From the IMG/VR virus record IMGVR_UViG_3300006919_000282, positions 1 to 29,496 of that record: 29,496 nt of DNA; one strand, given 5' to 3'. The notes beneath the pieces were generated by a model. That model had not been told where the DNA came from, made no database searches, and saw nothing but the letters and a program-made list of their open reading frames with translations. This document shows, piece by piece, positions 5,201 through 27,237 of the stretch (position 1 is the stretch's first letter; each line of letters opens with the position of its first letter). Source of the DNA: a virus. The position numbers and the translations under genes are program-made.

Positions 5201-5342
5201 GAATGATACGGATCTTTACACAGGCGATCTGAAGCTTTCTTTTCATCAGACTCGTAATCGAGAGCTTCAGTTCTATATTGAGCAGCGTGAACCCTACCCT
5301 CTTAACCTTTTATCCCTGACGATTCAGGCGGAAATATCATGA
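2292..5342 (+). CDS. Tail tubular protein B (gp12-like nozzle)
   Basis: This 1016-residue protein is the tail nozzle that extends the tail tube; T7 gp12 has 794 residues. It opens with the family signature FEFTGGELPPAKLGRTEDP, followed by IRSRPGTQRI near residue 50. Around residues 550-600 it has the second signature, in which a Phe-Pro-His strand leads into RLTFGGTLSHPQTVWHSRLD and FFDFSP. Near residues 758-775 a short IDELGN unit is repeated twice in tandem. The start codon overlaps the preceding stop (TAATG). The extra length over T7 lies mainly in the N-terminal half and may reflect inserted beta domains. Codon use is more A/T-rich than in the capsid gene, consistent with lower expression. 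Confidence 0.9.
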   Translation: MARSHSLTQFEFTGGELPPAKLGRTEDPLYAVSLSEVKDFIPDTEGPIRSRPGTQRITEEAASVTNARLFPLDVALGDGYLVEFTPNRVRITKPQDFGTFYSEVVILGAGPTASGVNGVYTYDAGESIPYSREVFKKQIDGAPAGDVFELKRETTSPTNFVFTTLTSRQDSNDLVVPLFINTGGVSPIWTIVEPSINPGDEPTQTREIDGPQQVGSADNIYDEGELEDIRVYVTGSVMYVTHPNHAPAIIYRDDSNTWVYEVIPFTNPAMNPISDRDARIDVSVADYQYRVSIQKDGADFSNPQYTPGVWIAYQQLDNYILAEFEAIDGADDRAIVKPVKRIVTGVDPSARVELQPTSSYVYLEDVDVPTLSSNSAIFSNELEGSHFRFINIELDGQGQDVFWVKLGPYLGVDLATSGFYGKDPAAEVDVMRVEEFEVGQPQISHIDIGRIDSFRDTNAAGQPLTLTRLTSTSPVFDFDSRPNDSDTRDAGRAVQFVIDDVVLNGVIQIDSNNNPNQASISVDGPLPYSEKEVPMNGGKVDTWRLGAFHNGNFPHAVTIFDARLTFGGTLSHPQTVWHSRLDRFFDFSPVDPDNRVLPDTGFSISLYGRKLSLIRWLHSGDQLLAGLESSIWALFGSEGIYTFSTAIARQQAEIGSIQQPVQFGSTVILVQTSGRYLHQIRFDDNVNSFEIDDGTAIPNHLFEGEGHKIVDLDVQLLPEAILWIVREDGLLCSLTPIWEGRNRRYAIAQHTIGAQATSVTQFIIDELGNRVIDELGNYVVADTVGIGTSRIPRVQTVAALFNSTGSREDLYLLTYRGNFRLVERMQFNFFPESPNDFTNMVHLDSASRANSDPPKTDWPEFTGYAGETVTVLADGVKVLENYSVPSSGVELPEESPATEVVIGYQYTPRLRTLPYSITLVAGNSGHQSRLGRVTRAFARVENTLGMAFGDDPDDAENFIEEDFGNNDDIENDTDLYTGDLKLSFHQTRNRELQFYIEQREPYPLNLLSLTIQAEIS

Positions 5343-5827
5343 CGACGACTCTAGCACAGCATTCGATTATAGATCAGTTTGAGAGGGAAGCGTTGGATCA
5401 TCCTTCGCAGATGTACTATAAGCTCGACCACGAGTTCTTGCCCTGCGGTAATGGTCAGTACATTTACGCGCGCACGGCTCATGTTCCGAAAGGATGCCTC
5501 TTTAGTTCGCTAGAGCATAAAACTCTCCATCATTTCAACCTCAGTAAGGGGGTGAACCTTATCTATGGAACAGGTAAGGAGCCCATTCGTCTGATCGCTC
5601 CTTGTCGTGGGACTACTGAGCCGGGAACTCGCCGTCTTATTTTTGCCGAGGAGGATTCTATCATGACTACCTATCACTTGACTACAGAAACAGATCCTGA
5701 GGCTGTGTTGGCGGAGATAACAGCTCCAAGTAGAAACCCGTTATTATCTGAGGAAGATAAGCTCCGTATGCAGCAACATCGAATATCTATGCCTTCAAGT
5801 AGAGAGGAGTTACCATGTCCGGAATAG
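5339..5827 (+). CDS. Cupin-like conserved phage protein
   Basis: This 162-residue protein matches a small family found next to podovirus tail genes. The core, residues 38-118, reads as a double-stranded beta-helix: YIYARTAHVPKGCLFSSLEH, then LHHFNLSKGVNLIYG, then IRLIAPCRGTTEPGTRRLIF and an EEDSIMTTYH strand. The family usually has the same pattern of a His-containing turn, a SKG motif and EPGT(K/R)R. Its function is unknown. The position between nozzle and internal virion genes suggests a role in tail assembly or virion structure. The start overlaps the previous stop (ATGA) and the stop overlaps the next gene by 13 bases, so translation is probably coupled. Confidence 0.7.
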   Translation: MTTTLAQHSIIDQFEREALDHPSQMYYKLDHEFLPCGNGQYIYARTAHVPKGCLFSSLEHKTLHHFNLSKGVNLIYGTGKEPIRLIAPCRGTTEPGTRRLIFAEEDSIMTTYHLTTETDPEAVLAEITAPSRNPLLSEEDKLRMQQHRISMPSSREELPCPE

Positions 5828-6869: not shown

Positions 6870-9800
6870 ATGGCATCGAATAGACAAAGATCAGATATTT
6901 CGGCCCCGAGCTTAGGCGGAGGTTTTGGGCAGGTCACGCCTACGCCTCGGGTTTCTCCTGTATCGACTACTCGATCCGCCGCGCCTAGAGCTACGGCCCG
7001 AATAGGCTCGCTTCCGAATGCGCCTGCTAATGTTCGCGCTCCGAATATAGATACGTCCAGCGCCCAGATTGCGGGAATACTTGCGGATACTCTTACCAAT
7101 GTTCAGAAATCTAATCAGTTTTTCGCCGAAAAGGAGATTGCGGCTAACACGATTGAGGCTCGTCAGGATATCGCTCGGGATTATGCGATTCAGCTAGCTC
7201 AGTTCAAAGAGGGTTATAATGAGGGCCTGCTTAAGGGACAGATTCATTTAGGTGAGGGAGAGAATCCTTTTGGAGAATTCGCTAATACTACTATAGCTAA
7301 TCCAAAATGGGATGGTTATCAGAATAGCGCTGCTTTCAATAAGCTTCCTCAGGAGCAGCAGCAGATACTTATCAGGGAGTTCTCCTCAAGGGAGCTTGTC
7401 AAAGCGGCCAATACCGATGTCAAGGAGCGTATCGCATTTACCAATACAAAGTTATCTAATCAGATTGCTAAGGGAGATGCTGAGATATCTTCTATCAAGT
7501 TGATTCCGTCGGATGATGGTAACTCCTTGGTACGTGATGCAGAAGGCACTGATTCAGGTATTCTTGCTCAGAATAATGCGGAGATTCTATTTCACTCAGG
7601 AAACGTAAAGGCGGCTCTTCCCTCGATCAATAGGCGGTTCGTCAAGTTCGCTAACGACTACTATCATAATCGGGATCCCAATGAAATTCTTCCTCCTCCA
7701 GAGCATTTTAACGCTCTGGTGAAGGAGTTTATTCATCCGGAGTTCGGACAGCTATTGGATCCTAATGTCATCGCTTCCCAGAAAAGCAAGTATAGGGAGG
7801 CTGCGCTTGTGGAGCCGAAACGCCGATATAAGCAGCTTTCCTTTGATGCATCTGTTGCTGTAAAGAATATACCTAGTTTAGATGCGTCGCATTTGGGAAA
7901 TCCGGATATGATTGCGGATAAACAGAAAGCATGGGCTGCTCTGAAAGAGCAGGAAGTTCAGGCTGAGCGTATAGGGGCTGATTTCCCCGAGGAGCGACGC
8001 TTTAAGCTGATGGAGTTGGGCGTTCAGTTGGAGGTGGATCGGGATTTTGCCGTCTATATGGATCCTCGATTGTTTGTGGCTGCGTCTACTATGTTTCCTG
8101 GCGATTCCGATGAAGCCAAGCAGATGCGTATTCAGATGGTTACTAATCCGGATACGGGAGAGCCTTTTATAGGATTGCCGATTCCTGGTTTGGATAAGCC
8201 TGTGGATTTAGGTTCTATGCCTCCTCTTGCTCGACTTCCTTGGTTGACTCAAGCAGTTAGGTTAAATCAGAAGCAGCTTAGTTTGGAGAAGCCTGTTGGG
8301 AAGGAAGCGAAGGCTATTCATAGAAGACAGGCAATGTATTTCAACTATGCTTTGGAACTTTTAGATGCCGCTACGGATCCGAAGTCTAATGCGTATGTGG
8401 AATCCTTGTCTGATCGAATATTTTCTCCTGAGACTCAGGCTAAGCTAAATGCAGCACAGGGGTTTGCTTCGGAACAGGAGGCTGCACAGAGTCTATGGCA
8501 AGAGTTGGTGGTAGGGAGCCTATTGTTGCAGGATGGTATGAAGATCCCCGATTCATCCGTTCCGTTTCTTACGGAACAGATGATGTCTTTTCATAATAAT
8601 GGGGCGACTCCTCCAGGTATCAGTGATGTCAATACAATAGGCAATACGATGGCTTCTTTACTCAGGAACCATTTAGAGAGAGGGGATTACGAAACGGCGG
8701 CAAAGGTTGGATTTGGCGTGGAGATTGCAGGGCTTAACGCGGATTTGCAGCCTATCCGTGATGAGTTTCGTCCAAAGGATGCACCCAATATAGTTAGCCG
8801 TATGTTTGGTCTGGGAGGTTCCGCCAAATCTAGCGTAGGTCTTTTGAAGCGTGTTCAGGATCTCACGCATCACGAACTCAACCAGAATGACGAGTATTCG
8901 GGATGGGTTGCCACGTTCTTAGATCCTAAAAGCGAGCAGAAAGATAAGGATAATGCTTTAGTGAATATCCGAACCACGTTGACTGACGCGACGTTGGATA
9001 AGCTCGACAGGATGCAGCTAGAAGCCCCTAGCGGCGGTCCCTTGTACTTTAGAAAGGGAGCTTTTCGTGGCTTCAGCAAGTCTGAAGCCCAGGCTCTCCT
9101 TGATATGGGTCATAGCGTAGCCTCGAATTTCTTCATACCTACTGGGGTTAATCAGGCTTACTGGGAAGTATTCCAGTCGCAGGTAATCCAGACTCCTGTC
9201 GGAGTTCAGTTCAAGGGCTTTGACCCAGGCGCTGGGAAGGAATTCATAGACAGAATAGCGGCTATGCAGTGGACTCAAGGCGGTAGTAAGCTTCGAGATA
9301 ATCTGGTGTCGCATCTTCGGCAGTTTGAGGGGAATACGGGAAGGGTATTGGATGCGTTTGAACGCTGGAGGGCTGACTTTGCGCTTCCTGAAAATTCGGG
9401 CATTACTGTGAATAGTCGTGGATTTATGGTGGCTTGGTCGCTTATCAGCGGTAAGACCGACAATCGCGTATTAAGTCAGGAGCCGTTATCTCCTGCGGTT
9501 GTGACCTCCTACATGTCTGAGGCTGATATGACTCAATGGCGGGCGGGCGCTCGGAGTTATGATGAGGGATTCCCTTCCTCTACTTCTATGACGGATAAGT
9601 TGAGGTTTTTAGGCGATAGCATTAAGAATATATTTAACGTAGGTCCTGCTGGTTCTCAGTTTCAGCCTTTGGATATAGCTGATATCCCAAAAGCGCTTAC
9701 AGCTAAGCTTGATTCGATCGATTTTGTTCGGGATGGAGAGAGTGTCCTCGATGGCGGTGAGATGTACGAAGTAAAGGATGAAGAGTTTCACGCTATGCAG

Positions 9801-22088: not shown

Positions 22089-22130
22089 CCGTTTTGCGGG
22101 CTCGGGAGCGCAAGCGCAACGAGAAAACGG
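22089..22130. other. Hairpin just after the late operon
   Basis: CCGTTTT at 22089-22095 pairs with AAAACGG at 22124-22130, and the interior holds a small GCGC-AA-GCGC hairpin (22108-22117). There is no T run after it on the plus strand, so it is not a clear terminator. It may protect the 3' end of the late transcript. Confidence 0.45.
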
Positions 22131-22156
22131 ACCAGAGCTGAAGCTTTGGAACACAC

Positions 22157-22190
22157 AAAAAAAGAGCCGCCCCGCTAAGCAGGACGGCTC
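22157..22190 (-). terminator. Intrinsic terminator of the leftward operon
   Basis: Read on the minus strand, GAGCCGTCC pairs with GGGGCGGCTC around a short loop and is followed by seven T residues. It ends the transcript that carries the replication genes, tRNA-like structures and HNH gene. A second, outer inverted repeat (GGAACACACA at 22148-22157 with TGTGTGTTCC at 22205-22214) surrounds it and could make a longer hairpin usable from both directions. Confidence 0.85.
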
Positions 22191-22234
22191 ATAGTGTGTG
22201 TCTGTGTGTGTTCCCAGAATCCAATCAGGAAATT

Positions 22235-22307
22235 TGGGTGCGGGAGAGGGTAACGCTCCCTCATGGTCCGGCTTATGAGACCGGATGCCGACTTTCGGCT
22301 TCCCGCC
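22235..22307 (-). tRNA. Degenerate tRNA-like gene, anticodon CAT (Met-like)
   Basis: The 73-base minus-strand sequence folds as a cloverleaf. The acceptor stem GGCGGGA pairs with TCCCGCA except for a G-A mismatch at the first pair, and a CCA end is encoded after it. The D arm is a five-pair hairpin (GCCGA-AAG-TCGGC) with a three-base loop. The anticodon stem is CCGGT/GCCGG around CTCATAA, which gives T at position 33 and anticodon CAT. The T stem is GAGGG/CCCTC with loop AGCGTTA. It lacks the GG of the D loop and the TTC of the T loop, so the usual D-T loop contact is impossible. An unpaired first acceptor pair is a known mark of initiator tRNA. It overlaps the HNH coding end. A defunct tRNA is an alternative. 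Confidence 0.5.
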
Positions 22308-22698
22308 TTAAAGTGTGAGGGTGTTTAGCTCCACATGACCGACTGCAATACATGCCCGTCTTGTTTTGCTTCAACCTCTTTCGATACTCGTAAGGAAGTA
22401 CACTAAATCGTTTTCCGCAAGAACATATGCATTCTATAAGGTCTGGCTTACGTTCTTTTTGATGCTGCGCGGTATGTTTTCGCACATGTAATGCTTCAAG
22501 ATTCTCAGGGCTATTGTTGTCCTTATTATGGTCAATGTGGTGTGCATGTTCATAAGTTTCCAGCAATCGGCCTAGCTTATTTTCGAGAACGACTCGATGC
22601 AGCGGATAGAGTCCTTTGGAATTTCGTTTCGGGTGCGGCGGATTTGTTCGGCAGTACATATAGCCGCCGCCTTTGCAGGTGGACAATATTTCAAACAT
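22273..22698 (-). CDS. HNH homing endonuclease
   Basis: The 141-residue protein is a free-standing HNH endonuclease of the phage homing type. Residues 32-80 carry the nuclease core: PLHRVVLENKLGR, then HHIDHNKDNNSPENLEAL, then KHTAQH. The C-terminal part has five cysteines (C90, C92, C94, C118, C122) in CICSCGKRF and YCSRSCG, probably a zinc ribbon used for DNA binding. Such enzymes cut DNA at one site and spread by repair. The gene lies between tRNA-like structures, and its TAA stop sits in the anticodon loop of the Met-like structure. No strong ribosome binding site precedes the ATG at 22698; an internal ATG at residue 14 is a possible start. Confidence 0.85.
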   Translation of the reverse strand: MFEILSTCKGGGYMYCRTNPPHPKRNSKGLYPLHRVVLENKLGRLLETYEHAHHIDHNKDNNSPENLEALHVRKHTAQHQKERKPDLIECICSCGKRFSVLPYEYRKRLKQNKTGMYCSRSCGAKHPHTLRREAESRHPVS

Positions 22699-22751
22699 TC
22701 ACACATGCTACACACTAGGTTATGAGTGTCAACTTTGACGGGCTAACAAAT

Positions 22752-22818
22752 TGGTGCCAGCCGAGGGATTTTCACCCCCTCGATCCCCTAAAGGACCGCC
22801 AGAATTAAATCGACCGGC
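22752..22818 (-). tRNA. Truncated tRNA-like structure lacking a D arm
   Basis: On the minus strand, 67 bases begin with acceptor strand GCCGGTC, which pairs with GGCTGGC (two G-T pairs), followed by A and an encoded CCA. A T-like arm is visible (GAGGG/CCCTC, or a shifted pairing with loop TGAAAAT). An anticodon-like stem GGTCC/GGATC encloses TTTAGG, which would give a TAG anticodon (Leu) if read as one. No D stem can be drawn between acceptor and anticodon arms. It lies two bases from the next tRNA-like structure. The short length and odd loops mean standard tRNA finders may miss it. Confidence 0.4.
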
Positions 22819-22820
22819 AT

Positions 22821-22899
22821 TGGCGTCCGAACATACAGGATTCGATACCTGTATTCCCTCCGTCTAGCGGAGATTCCTAACTTGAAAGAATGCTCGGAC
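22821..22899 (-). tRNA. tRNA-like structure with extended acceptor/T helix
   Basis: On the minus strand, 79 bases begin with GTCCGAG, which pairs with TTCGGAC, followed by G and an encoded CCA. The pairing continues for three more bases (CAT with ATG). The D arm has the normal 16-base length (TTCT/AGGA) but no GG in its loop. The anticodon arm TCTCC/GGAGG encloses GCTAGAC, so the anticodon could be TAG, but position 33 is not T. The T arm ACAGG/CCTGT has the near-normal loop TATCGAAT, one base too long. It starts 20 bases after the stop of the preceding minus-strand gene, as expected for a tRNA processed from the operon transcript. Confidence 0.45.
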
Positions 22900-22918
22900 A
22901 TGTTAGAGAGTGAGACAT

Positions 22919-23236
22919 TCAATCTGGTTTATCTTGGTCTTTTGTCAAAGATTTTTCATCGTCCTCCATCTCTTGGATTCGCTGTTCGAAGTGCAGAATC
23001 ATCATATCCGAGAGTTGCTTAAGAGACTTGTCGAAGTTCTCCATATTCGAAACCGTAATCATCCCTCGACTGTGCATATACAGCCGCGTCGCGGCAGCTT
23101 CCACTATGTCATGCAGAAAGGAAGATCCTAGACGCATCCCTACCTCCATTAGTGTGCGTCCCATCAATTGTTCGATCATATTTTCGTCGATCTTCAGGTC
23201 CTTGGGGTCTTCGTCGTCTTCTTTGTATCTGTACAT
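22919..23236 (-). CDS. Hypothetical 105-residue acidic helical protein
   Basis: I do not recognise this protein. It is rich in Asp, Glu, Met and Lys, looks helical, and has no membrane segment. Notable stretches are MIEQLMGRTLMEVGMRLGSS, an amphipathic helix, and FDKSLKQLSDMMILHFEQRI, which could form a coiled coil; the C-terminus is a charged tail. The start overlaps the stop of the SNF2-like helicase gene as TAATG, so it is probably made with that helicase. It is the last protein gene before the tRNA-like cluster. A helper of the replication enzymes is possible but unproven. Confidence 0.6.
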   Translation of the reverse strand: MYRYKEDDEDPKDLKIDENMIEQLMGRTLMEVGMRLGSSFLHDIVEAAATRLYMHSRGMITVSNMENFDKSLKQLSDMMILHFEQRIQEMEDDEKSLTKDQDKPD

Positions 23237-24654: not shown

Positions 24655-24839
24655 GTCTCCCGTCCTTTGTTCGTCCATTCGATGAATTTCTCTCGGTGAA
24701 AGTTAGGATACTCCCTGTCGAAAGCGATGGTTATTTCGGCTCGCACCAGATGCCACGCTAGTGTAGCTATCTCATCTTCTCTTGGGGGCCTCGCGAGCCG
24801 TAGGCTTTCGGCAACTACAATAAAATCTTTGCGTGTCAT
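24639..24839 (-). CDS. Small conserved phage protein of unknown function
   Basis: The 66-residue product resembles short phage proteins that open with M(T/S)RKxF and an (A/I)-rich helix and end in a pattern of the form NFxREKFxxW. Here the matching parts are MTRKDFIVVAESLRLA and REYPNFHREKFIEW. These proteins are common between replication genes in many phages and their role is unknown. The ATG overlaps the stop of the preceding gene as ATGA, and the end overlaps the helicase start by 16 bases, so it sits inside a translationally coupled chain. Confidence 0.65.
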   Translation of the reverse strand: MTRKDFIVVAESLRLARPPREDEIATLAWHLVRAEITIAFDREYPNFHREKFIEWTNKGRETCVLR

Positions 24840-25726
24840 TTTTTATAGAATTGGTCGTTCCAGCTCTTCCGTTTCGCGGGAGCTTTATTTTTGCTTATCA
24901 ATTTATCTAGAGCCTTGTCTAAAGCGTCTTGGTTTACGTCAGGCGCGGGGGGTTCGACAGTATCCCCGGTTCCATCCGTTACGCGAGGTAAAGTCACCGG
25001 TCGCCATACTCCAGTCTCTGGATCCTCTCTACGAATTGGCGGCGGATCTACGACCGTTTCAATAGTCTCTCTAGTGGTAGTATCATAAGTAATGTAAGTC
25101 TCATGATTCCCATCCGTCAAATCACCCGTACCGTCTACCGGATTATCTTGGGGATCGAGAGCTTCTAGCAGCATCTCATCTTCATGGGTGATCTGTTCTC
25201 TAGGGAGTCTGAATGCTCTTGGTAAAGTTATATTGTCGTCTACTTCGGCGGGTATCATGACGACGCCCGTGCGCGCTAGACCTGTTCTTATTCGGTTTGA
25301 AGCTCCTATATGGTCATCTATGCGAGTGGTAATATCAGGCCCAGACACATACTTATATCTATCGATTAGTTGATTATGCAGTATTTGTTGAGTTAAAAGA
25401 TCATCATACTCTGTATCCCTGTCTTGAGCACTAATGCCGAATCGTCTAGTATACGACGAACGAACACGCGTGGCTTCTGCCCCTATAACATACTGATACG
25501 AGCCGTATATAGTTATCAAAGGAATCATTTCCAATGGTCTATATATAATATTGTTTACGTTCATTATATGATATAATATAAGCCTAATGGTGGTCCTATC
25601 TAGACCACTTTGGATATTATATAATAGAGAGTGATGTTCGCGTCTTTCAGGGACATAGTATCTGACGTGCAGTAAATAGAATCCTAGATACTGGAAAACG
25701 TGGGCTTGTTTTAGTTCGCTTCTCAT
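24836..25726 (-). CDS. Orphan protein in the replication operon
   Basis: This 296-residue protein is unlike any family I can name. The first half is compact and rich in Tyr, Arg, Ile and Leu (FQYLGFYLLHVRYYVPERRE; MNVNNIIYRPLEMIPLITIYG). The middle is charged (RFGISAQDRDTEYDD). The last 100 residues are a disordered Asp/Thr/Pro-rich tail ending in KSWNDQFYKK. The start is fixed by an ATGA overlap with the UvrD-like gene stop; a longer frame to 25798 is open but would overlap that gene by 76 bases. Its codons are visibly A/T-rich with many ATA, unlike the two genes before it, suggesting a different origin or lower expression. Function unknown. Confidence 0.7.
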   Translation of the reverse strand: MRSELKQAHVFQYLGFYLLHVRYYVPERREHHSLLYNIQSGLDRTTIRLILYHIMNVNNIIYRPLEMIPLITIYGSYQYVIGAEATRVRSSYTRRFGISAQDRDTEYDDLLTQQILHNQLIDRYKYVSGPDITTRIDDHIGASNRIRTGLARTGVVMIPAEVDDNITLPRAFRLPREQITHEDEMLLEALDPQDNPVDGTGDLTDGNHETYITYDTTTRETIETVVDPPPIRREDPETGVWRPVTLPRVTDGTGDTVEPPAPDVNQDALDKALDKLISKNKAPAKRKSWNDQFYKK

Positions 25727-27237
25727 ATACTGGGGAAACTGTAATAGTTCTGGGTTAAGGGCTCCATCAGGAACAGGTTCTTCTTGGCGCGGGTGCATGC
25801 GACATAGAATGTCCTATGCTCCGCGTCTGGGTTCTCTTCGTATTCTTTCCAAGTAGTCCATGCCATATCAGGCAGCACTACTACGTTGTCGGCCTCCCGA
25901 CCCTTGGTCGCGTGGATCGTAGTGACCTCGATTCGGTCAGCCGCTTCTACGCCGCCATCCAAATTCATCAGCTTCACGGCAAGTCTCGTATCTATGCTGA
26001 AGGCTTCCCACCACGGCTCCGCAGTGATTAATCCGAAATCGTCTTTGAGCTGCTGATAGTCCAGCATCTCCCCGTCGTTGATCGAATCGAGCACGTTCTT
26101 GAAGCCCTTCTCCACCTTGGTTCCGGTCTTCAGGAAATTCCGATAGATCAGCTTGGCCTCGCGAGCCAGAATAGCCTCTCCTTTGTCAAGCTGCTCCCAC
26201 GCTTTTATGCACTCCACCAGATTATCGGGCAGCGCGCTATTGGAAAGCGACTTGAACAGCAGGCCACGGGATTTCAGAGAATCCTCGATGGCTTCGAGGA
26301 AGCAACGGTTGCGAGCTATGATCAGCCAATTGCCTTTGCTCATATCCAGCTCGTCGAGATACATGATATCCTTGATCGTACCCTCCGACGCATCGGGCTG
26401 GGCGCCCACGGTGTAGGCGGATTTGCTCTGGATACGCTCGGCTATCTTCTCGGCGTAATTAAGTATCGCGCGGGGCAGACGGTGGCAGGTTTCCAGAACC
26501 TCCCGATCACCCTTTCGATTGATTAGGCTGTCCGGACAGGCTCCAGAGAATTCGTAAATGGCCTGCTTGTCGTCGCCAGCGATATACATGCCCTTCACAA
26601 CCTCGCTCAGAAGCTCTAGGATCCGCCATTGGAGCTTAGAGAGGTCCTGGGCCTCATCCACGATCAAGTAGTCCACATCGAGCGTTCTGCCCGCTTTGAG
26701 GAAGTTCTCCAGCTGGTCGCCGAAGTCGATCTTGCCCGTTATTCGCTTGAATTCGCGATAAGTCTCGGAGAAATGACGCAGAACCTGCGGAGATTCCGCA
26801 AGATTAGGCTGCCGCTGACATACCTCCTCGAACGATAGCAACGCATTGCGGCGAAGATTCTCCAGAGAGAGCAGACGATTGCCTCGGCTCATCTGAACCA
26901 GAGCAGCTCCGCTATTGGCGCTGAACCCGCTGAATCCGGAAATCTTGTAGCCCAGAATCTCGCTCAGCTCATCGTAATCGAGCTTCCCGAGCATCGGACG
27001 CTGCGGGGCGTTGCGATAGCAGAGGCTGTGAAGCGTCCGGAAATGCTTGAACTGCTCAGGCAGGACGCTGGGGAACCTCTTACAGGCTCTATCAATGGCT
27101 TCATTGGCTCCAGCGTTAGTGTAGGTGGTGTAGATTATTCGTTCGGGCGGCGTATGCTTTAGAAGCTCTTCGAGTATATTCAAAAGAGCAGTCGTCTTGC
27201 CTGTGCCTGCGGAGGCTACTAGTATTTTGGGCGTCAT
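25723..27237 (-). CDS. UvrD/Rep-like SF1 DNA helicase
   Basis: The 504-residue protein has the SF1A motifs in order. These are Walker A ASAGTGKT (8-15), motif Ia TTYTNAGANEA near residue 37, TLHSLC near residue 68, Walker B DEAQD (194-198), motif III GDDKQAIYEFSG (221-232), motif V TIHATKGREAD (440-450) and motif VI YVACTRAKK (478-486). It lacks the large 1B and 2B insertions of full-length UvrD, so it is a compact phage form. It probably unwinds DNA at the phage fork together with the primase made from the gene just before it; the two are linked by TAATG. Confidence 0.9.
   Translation of the reverse strand: MTPKILVASAGTGKTTALLNILEELLKHTPPERIIYTTYTNAGANEAIDRACKRFPSVLPEQFKHFRTLHSLCYRNAPQRPMLGKLDYDELSEILGYKISGFSGFSANSGAALVQMSRGNRLLSLENLRRNALLSFEEVCQRQPNLAESPQVLRHFSETYREFKRITGKIDFGDQLENFLKAGRTLDVDYLIVDEAQDLSKLQWRILELLSEVVKGMYIAGDDKQAIYEFSGACPDSLINRKGDREVLETCHRLPRAILNYAEKIAERIQSKSAYTVGAQPDASEGTIKDIMYLDELDMSKGNWLIIARNRCFLEAIEDSLKSRGLLFKSLSNSALPDNLVECIKAWEQLDKGEAILAREAKLIYRNFLKTGTKVEKGFKNVLDSINDGEMLDYQQLKDDFGLITAEPWWEAFSIDTRLAVKLMNLDGGVEAADRIEVTTIHATKGREADNVVVLPDMAWTTWKEYEENPDAEHRTFYVACTRAKKNLFLMEPLTQNYYSFPSI

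Follow-up and report, generated by a model that had tools for sequence, protein, structure and literature searches.

A probable phage tRNA cluster at the end of a replication operon, with a predicted member of a widespread viral tRNA(CAU) family carrying a rewired elbow

The window analyzed here, a 29,496-nucleotide stretch of viral DNA (IMG/VR record IMGVR_UViG_3300006919_000282), in all likelihood carries a phage tRNA cluster that ends a replication operon and is arranged as t3, t2, an HNH endonuclease gene and t1, with t1 belonging to a widespread viral tRNA(CAU) family with a rewired elbow (probability about 0.8). In t1, the contact between the D and T loops is predicted to consist of A18-G55, in place of G18-U55, and an unchanged G19-C56. 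The cloverleaf of t1, its CCA end, its family membership and the covariation of its stems and elbow can be read from sequence comparison.

Genomic context of the cluster

The 29.5-kb virus record represents a podovirus-like phage whose capsid and tail genes lie on the plus strand; on these, a minus-strand operon encoding an AEP-type primase, a UvrD-like helicase and an SNF2-type helicase converges (Pfam and PHROG assignments). Past the last genes of this operon lie, on the minus strand and in this order, t3 (22821–22899), t2 (22752–22818), an HNH endonuclease ORF (22273–22698; Pfam HNH_3, E = 1.4e-8; PHROG 14913, E = 1.5e-16), t1 (22235–22307) and an intrinsic terminator with a 12-pair stem and a T tract (22164–22190). 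The original prediction had placed three minus-strand segments at exactly these coordinates, with t2 and t3 two bases apart and directly after the operon, and the gene order bears this out. Phage tRNA clusters are usually built in this way, with a homing-type endonuclease among the tRNA genes. A candidate promoter, recognized as a consensus match (TTGACA-16-TAGCAT, 22705–22732, minus strand, 10/12 matching positions), precedes the HNH ORF and t1.

The final 11–12 codons of the HNH ORF overlap t1, and its TAA stop codon (22273–22275, minus strand) consists of the last anticodon base and the next two loop bases of the tRNA. A group I intron around this ORF was considered and rejected: no Rfam intron model matched up to E = 10 within positions 22100–23000, and t1 is contiguous. 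The terminator between the converging operons is flanked by a perfect 10-nt inverted repeat, GGAACACACA/TGTGTGTTCC (22148–22214), and an operon protein of 320 aa (24836–25798, minus strand) has no Pfam or PHROG match.

Among phages sharing this gene order, Podoviridae sp. ct3Et533 (MW202510) is the closest; no structures like t1, t2 or t3 were found at the same place in it, the tRNA cluster being absent. No comparable cloverleaf was detected in 80 primase-bearing relatives, nor any ARAGORN tRNA in those scanned; MCP relatives (L086–L088, 69% identity) end short of the t1–t3 region, and no close relative of the stretch was found. Sought in related phages, the structures were recovered for t1, as the family described below, but not in MW202510, in the primase relatives or as relatives of t2 and t3.

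Folding and detection of the three structures

The minimum-free-energy folds of t1, t2 and t3 are all cloverleaf-like with the 3′ CCA tail unpaired, and the acceptor stem followed by CCA that had been predicted for each was confirmed, with six of seven positions paired in t1, 7 bp in t2 and 7–8 bp in t3. Compared with dinucleotide shuffles, the fold z-scores were −4.15 for t1, −2.53 for t2 and −4.26 for t3, and none of 200 shuffles reached the stability of t3. A blind cloverleaf-plus-CCA descriptor with a 4-nt tail matched t2 and t3 and nothing else in the window, against about 0.8 weaker matches per shuffled window, and t1 was found as well once a 5-nt tail was also allowed. With that wider setting, the window and 1.1 Mb of related phage loci together contained only five distinct matches at or below −24 kcal/mol, three of them being t1, t2 and t3. 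Standard tools gave no call: ARAGORN reported no tRNA gene in the window, Rfam reported no tRNA at the gathering threshold, and under permissive Rfam settings a tRNA-family match at E ≤ 10 was absent even for short stretches searched alone. We regard the three structures as very probably real phage tRNA genes.

t1 as a tRNA(CAU)

Read from 22307 to 22235, t1 begins with the acceptor strand GGCGGGA, paired to TCCCGCA except for the G1×A72 mismatch, continues with the D arm GCCG-AAAGT-CGGC, the anticodon loop CTCATAA with the anticodon CAU at 22275–22277 and the T arm GAGGG-AGCGTTA-CCCTC, and ends with C73 and an encoded CCA. Apart from the 1:72 pair, it has the general tRNA layout: a cloverleaf with CCA, an acceptor of seven positions, 5/7 anticodon and T arms, and U33. 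The canonical D-loop GG and T-loop TTC are absent, and their places are taken by AG, read as A18 G19 (22292–22293, minus strand), and by GC in the T loop (22251–22257, minus strand; G55 at 22256, C56 at 22255). The claim that no D loop of the three has GG and that two T loops lack TTC stood for t1 and t2, but t3 has a GG in its D region, off the canonical loop position, and a TTC that is interrupted.

When t1 was compared by blastn with 50,697 phage records, most of the matches were annotated tRNA-Met genes. It aligns without gaps over the tRNA body of the tRNA-Met of Bacillus phage BSP14, and the Bacillus phages BSP14 and 010DV004 share its anticodon arm CCGGTCTCATAAGCCGG and a comparably short D arm. 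The tRNA-Met/tRNA(CAU) genes of these phages and of Vibrio phage PG07 have D-loop GG and T-loop TTCGA and are detected by ARAGORN, whereas t1 has AG and AGCGTTA. Judged from its sequence, t1 is a tRNA(CAU). The suggestion of functional minimal tRNAs can thus be kept for t1, as a member of a covarying tRNA(CAU) family, but t2 and t3 are tied to no family.

A large viral family with covarying stems

IMG/VR was scanned with two patterns. With the t1 anticodon arm as query, 80 loci were listed, nearly all visibly tRNA(CAU); about one third of the short excerpts had no ARAGORN call, and the D-loop and T-loop dinucleotides seemed to shift in step. The second pattern, which combined TCTCATAAG with a subsequent T loop of the class RGCRNTA, gave at least 119 stretches, nearly all of them cloverleaf tRNA(CAU) with D-loop AAG, and a few (e.g., L250, L253, L273 and L300) resembling chance matches; among the matches listed, ARAGORN called 10 of 119 excerpts. 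This pattern preset the anticodon loop, together with the greater part of the T loop, and left the D loop, the stems and the 1:72 state free, so the uniform anticodon and T loop of its matches are no evidence, both having been fixed by the search.

A covariance model (R2) was built from 22 viral sequences with the window left out. Run against the window with filters off, it matched t1 at 59.7 bits (E = 7e-13, roughly calibrated), the next best match scoring 9.4, and did not match t2 or t3. The family signature, D-loop AAG with T-loop RGCR, is present in t1 as AAAGT and AGCGTTA. Covariation was counted on relatives from about 90 viral contigs, both in the model alignment (110 distinct sequences; the 112 matches include other isotypes) and in a gapless subset. 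In the model alignment, two-sided changes were found in 20 of 21 stem pairs and 94.7% of cells were paired, compared with 37–43% for slid partners and 64.6% for shuffles, the alignment itself leaning towards structure. The gapless subset was 96.3% paired, with two-sided changes in 12 pairs, equalled by none of 500 shuffles. Compensatory stem changes in other phages, named in the original prediction as support for function, therefore do occur in the t1 family. These data place t1 in what appears to be a large, mostly unannotated viral tRNA(CAU) family.

A t1-type pattern, slightly different from that of the viral scan, was also run on 84,980 bacterial and archaeal genomes and yielded 13 stretches, of which 7 are tRNA-like and the remaining ones resemble chance. 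As far as pattern matches indicate, viruses, and perhaps other mobile elements, are clearly where the t1 type is concentrated. The seven tRNA-like cellular stretches, of the tRNA(CAU) type (L331, L332, L333, L336, L337, L338 and L339), are located within or next to tRNA arrays in MAGs of Acidobacteria and Planctomycetes (Planctomycetaceae) and have no encoded CCA.

Coordinated replacement of the D–T loop contact

A descriptor without sequence constraints on the D and T loops (17/17 stem pairs, U33 and CCA) retrieved 921 unique viral tRNAs from 259 loci, and 1 from shuffled sequence. The elbow test set, with 16 or 17 pairs plus CCA, comprised 1379 unique sequences, or 992 after dereplication at 80%. 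In these 992 sequences, where the dinucleotide motif was sought anywhere in the D loop, not position by position or as structural proof, and where relatedness is reduced, not removed, T loops with U55C56 were accompanied by D-loop GG in 750 of 762 cases and those with G55C56 by AG in 98 of 101 (GG in 12). The rarer combinations followed suit, namely U55U56 with GA (24/25), U55A56 with GU (6/6), G55A56 with AU (2/2) and G55G56 with AC (2/3). Altogether, the predicted D-loop dinucleotide was present in 133 of 139 non-UC tRNAs, against a mean of 70 (maximum 90) with random D loops and a mean of 100 (maximum 112) when D loops were reshuffled among non-UC tRNAs only. The counts indicate a switch of 18-55 between G-U and A-G, with various Watson-Crick pairs at 19-56. 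A correlated loss of the contact had been proposed; the correlation holds, since positions 18-19 and 55-56 switch together, but nothing is lost, and correlated replacement is the better description.

At loci that had not been chosen by their T loop, 35 of 514 non-CAU tRNAs were of the GC type and 17 of the UU type. GC-type elbows were found with 34 anticodons, in ordinary tRNA clusters and with U33, which the descriptor required. A second elbow class combines the T loop TTTRA (U56) with D-loop GA, giving A19-U56 for G19-C56 (L100, L125, L157, L207 and others). The 54-58 pair also varies in the viral set: U-A in 1152, A-U in 132 (e.g., ATCGTTA), G-G in 35 and A-A in 32.

ARAGORN recovered 1118 of 1156 UC-type tRNAs (97%) and 46 of 152 GC-type tRNAs (30%). 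On the viral contig L222 (33–11869), 19 of 20 detected tRNAs, covering many isotypes, have a non-UC T loop or an altered T54, and ARAGORN reports 15 genes there. Microcystis phage Mwe-JY26 (PP438418, L356) carries four unannotated GC-type tRNAs, Pro UGG (5297–5370), Thr GGU (7884–7960), Asn GUU (8456–8533) and Glu UUC (8991–9067), next to 16 annotated neighbours. The named phages KEY and KKP_3711 were dropped as rewired examples, their T loop being normal.

The rewiring may stem from neutral compensatory change or from escape from host factors that read G18, U54 and U55. Neutral compensatory evolution, bringing the phage no advantage, has in our estimate an even chance: several alternative pairs coexist with normal elbows in the same clusters, and the tolerated elbow pairs all look structurally exchangeable, yet 19 rewired tRNAs out of 20 on one contig go beyond what independent drift would suggest, although common ancestry may explain them.

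Initiator or other role of t1

The acceptor of t1 has G1×A72, with no Watson-Crick pair at 1:72, followed by G2:C71, C3:G70 and G4:C69. Of the 22 sequences in the gapless family alignment, 15 have no pair at 1:72, and G2:C71, C3:G70 and G5:C68 are invariant. A 1:72 pair is missing in 60 of 161 CAU tRNAs, a set that partly consists of the same family, compared with 26 of 1218 others. The mismatch, the three following pairs and the anticodon loop CTCATAA are shared with bacterial initiator tRNA-fMet, from which t1 differs by U31oG39, C73 and the A18-G55 elbow. Its anticodon stem contains G29-C41 and G30-C40 but not the third initiator G-C pair, U31oG39 standing in its place, and for this reason membership of the initiator class is not claimed; on the acceptor features, t1 is probably of initiator type.

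A less probable reading, though one with real weight, is that t1 serves as an elongator tRNA-Met or a lysidine-modified tRNA-Ile for AUA and that its 1:72 mismatch is tolerated drift. AUA is used at 16.4 per thousand in the window and makes up 29% of Ile codons, which is compatible with a tRNA-Ile2 role, and 1:72 is paired in about half of the t1 family; however, the mismatch is uncommon in other phage tRNAs and, within the family, accompanies the invariant G2:C71 and C3:G70. E. coli lysidine synthetase is aided by the pairs C4-G69 and C5-G68, and both are reversed in t1. Lysidine is carried by a vibriophage tRNA(CAU) (PMC13191261).

The cluster makes up the 3′ end of the replication operon on the minus strand, which the intrinsic terminator closes. 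Host RNase P would most likely cut t1 out of the transcript. As it already carries CCA, it would then be charged, probably with methionine, and supply the phage with a CAU tRNA.

t2 and t3, and readings of the cluster other than as tRNA genes

Read from 22818 to 22752, t2 has a 7-bp acceptor, a 13-nt D region without a stem, a 5-bp anticodon stem with the 8-nt loop CTTTAGGG, a 1-nt variable loop, the T loop TGAAAAT, A73 and CCA. It passed a 17/17-pair descriptor with an 8-nt anticodon loop, a setting picked after t2 had been seen, with no match in shuffled sequence. Its T loop (G55A56) predicts A18U19 and its D region contains AAT, a weak fit to the elbow rule because that region is A/T-rich and stemless. 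Read from 22899 to 22821, t3 has a 7–8 bp acceptor, three hairpins, the 8-nt T loop TATCGAAT, G73 and CCA, with C33 in either reading. By register, the anticodon would be UAG or UUA in t2 and UAG in t3. In phages, blastn gave no useful match for either, and no relatives of t3 were found; local matches of t2 in L103 and of t3 in L262 were antisense to ordinary tRNAs and were dropped. From their modeled folds, t2 and t3 probably add two tRNA genes to the cluster, both more degenerate than t1. Given the stemless D region, 1-nt variable loop and 8-nt anticodon loop of t2, and the C33, 8-nt T loop and lack of relatives of t3, either could be decaying.

For the cluster as a whole, decaying pseudogenes with stems kept by chance or recency are improbable: t2 and t3 do deviate at several sites and have no found relatives, and MW202510 is without the cluster, but the stems of all three are essentially complete and unusually stable, and the loop changes of t1 recur as the consensus in a large family whose stem changes compensate each other, a pattern that decay cannot produce. 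Similarly doubtful are non-decoding tRNA mimics, acting either as decoys that draw off tRNA enzymes or nucleases of defence systems, or as signals for processing the operon transcript, roles to which the location at the operon end, the abnormal anticodon loop of t2 and the missing U33 of t3 would be suited, but against which stand the CTCATAA loop (part of the search pattern) and CCA retained in the t1 family and the spread of GC-type elbows over 34 anticodons within ordinary clusters, with the U33 that the descriptor required. The decoy and processing-signal ideas of the original prediction gained no support, as the t1 family keeps its stems, its U33 anticodon loop and CCA.

Comparison with known tRNAs

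In PMC7609411, tRNA-Pyl is described with traits resembling those of t1, namely a short D loop without GG, a T loop without TTC and a single base between acceptor and D stem. However, t1 has CAU instead of CUA, a variable region of 4–5 nt and a distinct, covarying replacement contact. Identity with tRNA-Pyl was rejected for all three structures, as none has a CUA anticodon (CAU in t1, UAG/UUA in t2, UAG in t3). Metazoan mitochondrial tRNAs of types II and III likewise lack the conserved D- and T-loop bases, and t2 resembles the D-armless form. In type II, the D–T interaction is absent, according to PMC7609411, whereas the viral tRNAs exchange the contact by covariation. In animal A54/A58 tRNA-Ala, as in the viral elbows, a conserved tertiary pair of the T loop has changed naturally; PMC7566577 describes changes at 54-58 and 15-48, while in the viral tRNAs 18-55 and 19-56 change as well.

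Reviews treat U55 as universally conserved and G19-C56 as the flat side of the elbow, recognized by the ribosome and by many other partners (PMC4810234; PMC7912444). Neither phage tRNAs nor an A18-G55 exchange is mentioned in the searched passages of three reviews, covering non-canonical tRNAs (PMC7609411), the elbow (PMC4810234) and the T loop (PMC7912444), or of a study of unusual tertiary pairs (PMC7566577). A direct search of openly licensed papers found no description of an A18-G55 elbow exchange.

Implications for phage tRNAs

Suppressor tRNAs in which the D and T loops are altered have reportedly been selected in the laboratory by the Steinberg group. Natural two-sided elbow switches occur in about 12% of non-CAU viral tRNAs at loci not chosen by their T loop, and viral tRNAs thereby offer a ready-made natural mutagenesis of the tRNA elbow, as well as alternatives for orthogonal tRNA work. 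As a sequenced isolate with four unannotated GC-type genes, Mwe-JY26 makes the class testable at the bench.

A survey of viral tRNA genes relied on ARAGORN (PMC6409571), a tool that misses most GC-type tRNAs, and with recoveries of 97% for UC-type and 30% for GC-type genes, phage tRNA counts would be too low. The tRNA-Pyl calls made by ARAGORN in 44 of 55 mycobacteriophages in that survey might be rewired-type tRNAs without GG and TTC instead of genuine tRNA-Pyl. The class to which t1 belongs appears, from the sequences compared, to be a large and poorly annotated group of viral tRNAs with a covarying alternative elbow, usually missed by standard gene finders.

PMC12851939 cites phage tRNAs that evade anticodon nucleases; an immune nuclease described there touches the T arm. 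A tentative and rather unlikely proposal is that tRNAs of mobile elements have adopted the rewired elbow, A18-G55 plus any Watson-Crick pair at 19-56, as an adaptation that escapes host readers. If it is true, the L shape would be kept while G18, U54 and U55, which host tRNA-modifying enzymes read, are removed, and tRNA-directed immune nucleases would possibly lose the same sites; phages would carry entire rewired sets, such as the 19 of 20 on L222, and an initiator-type tRNA among them could give phage translation starts an advantage.
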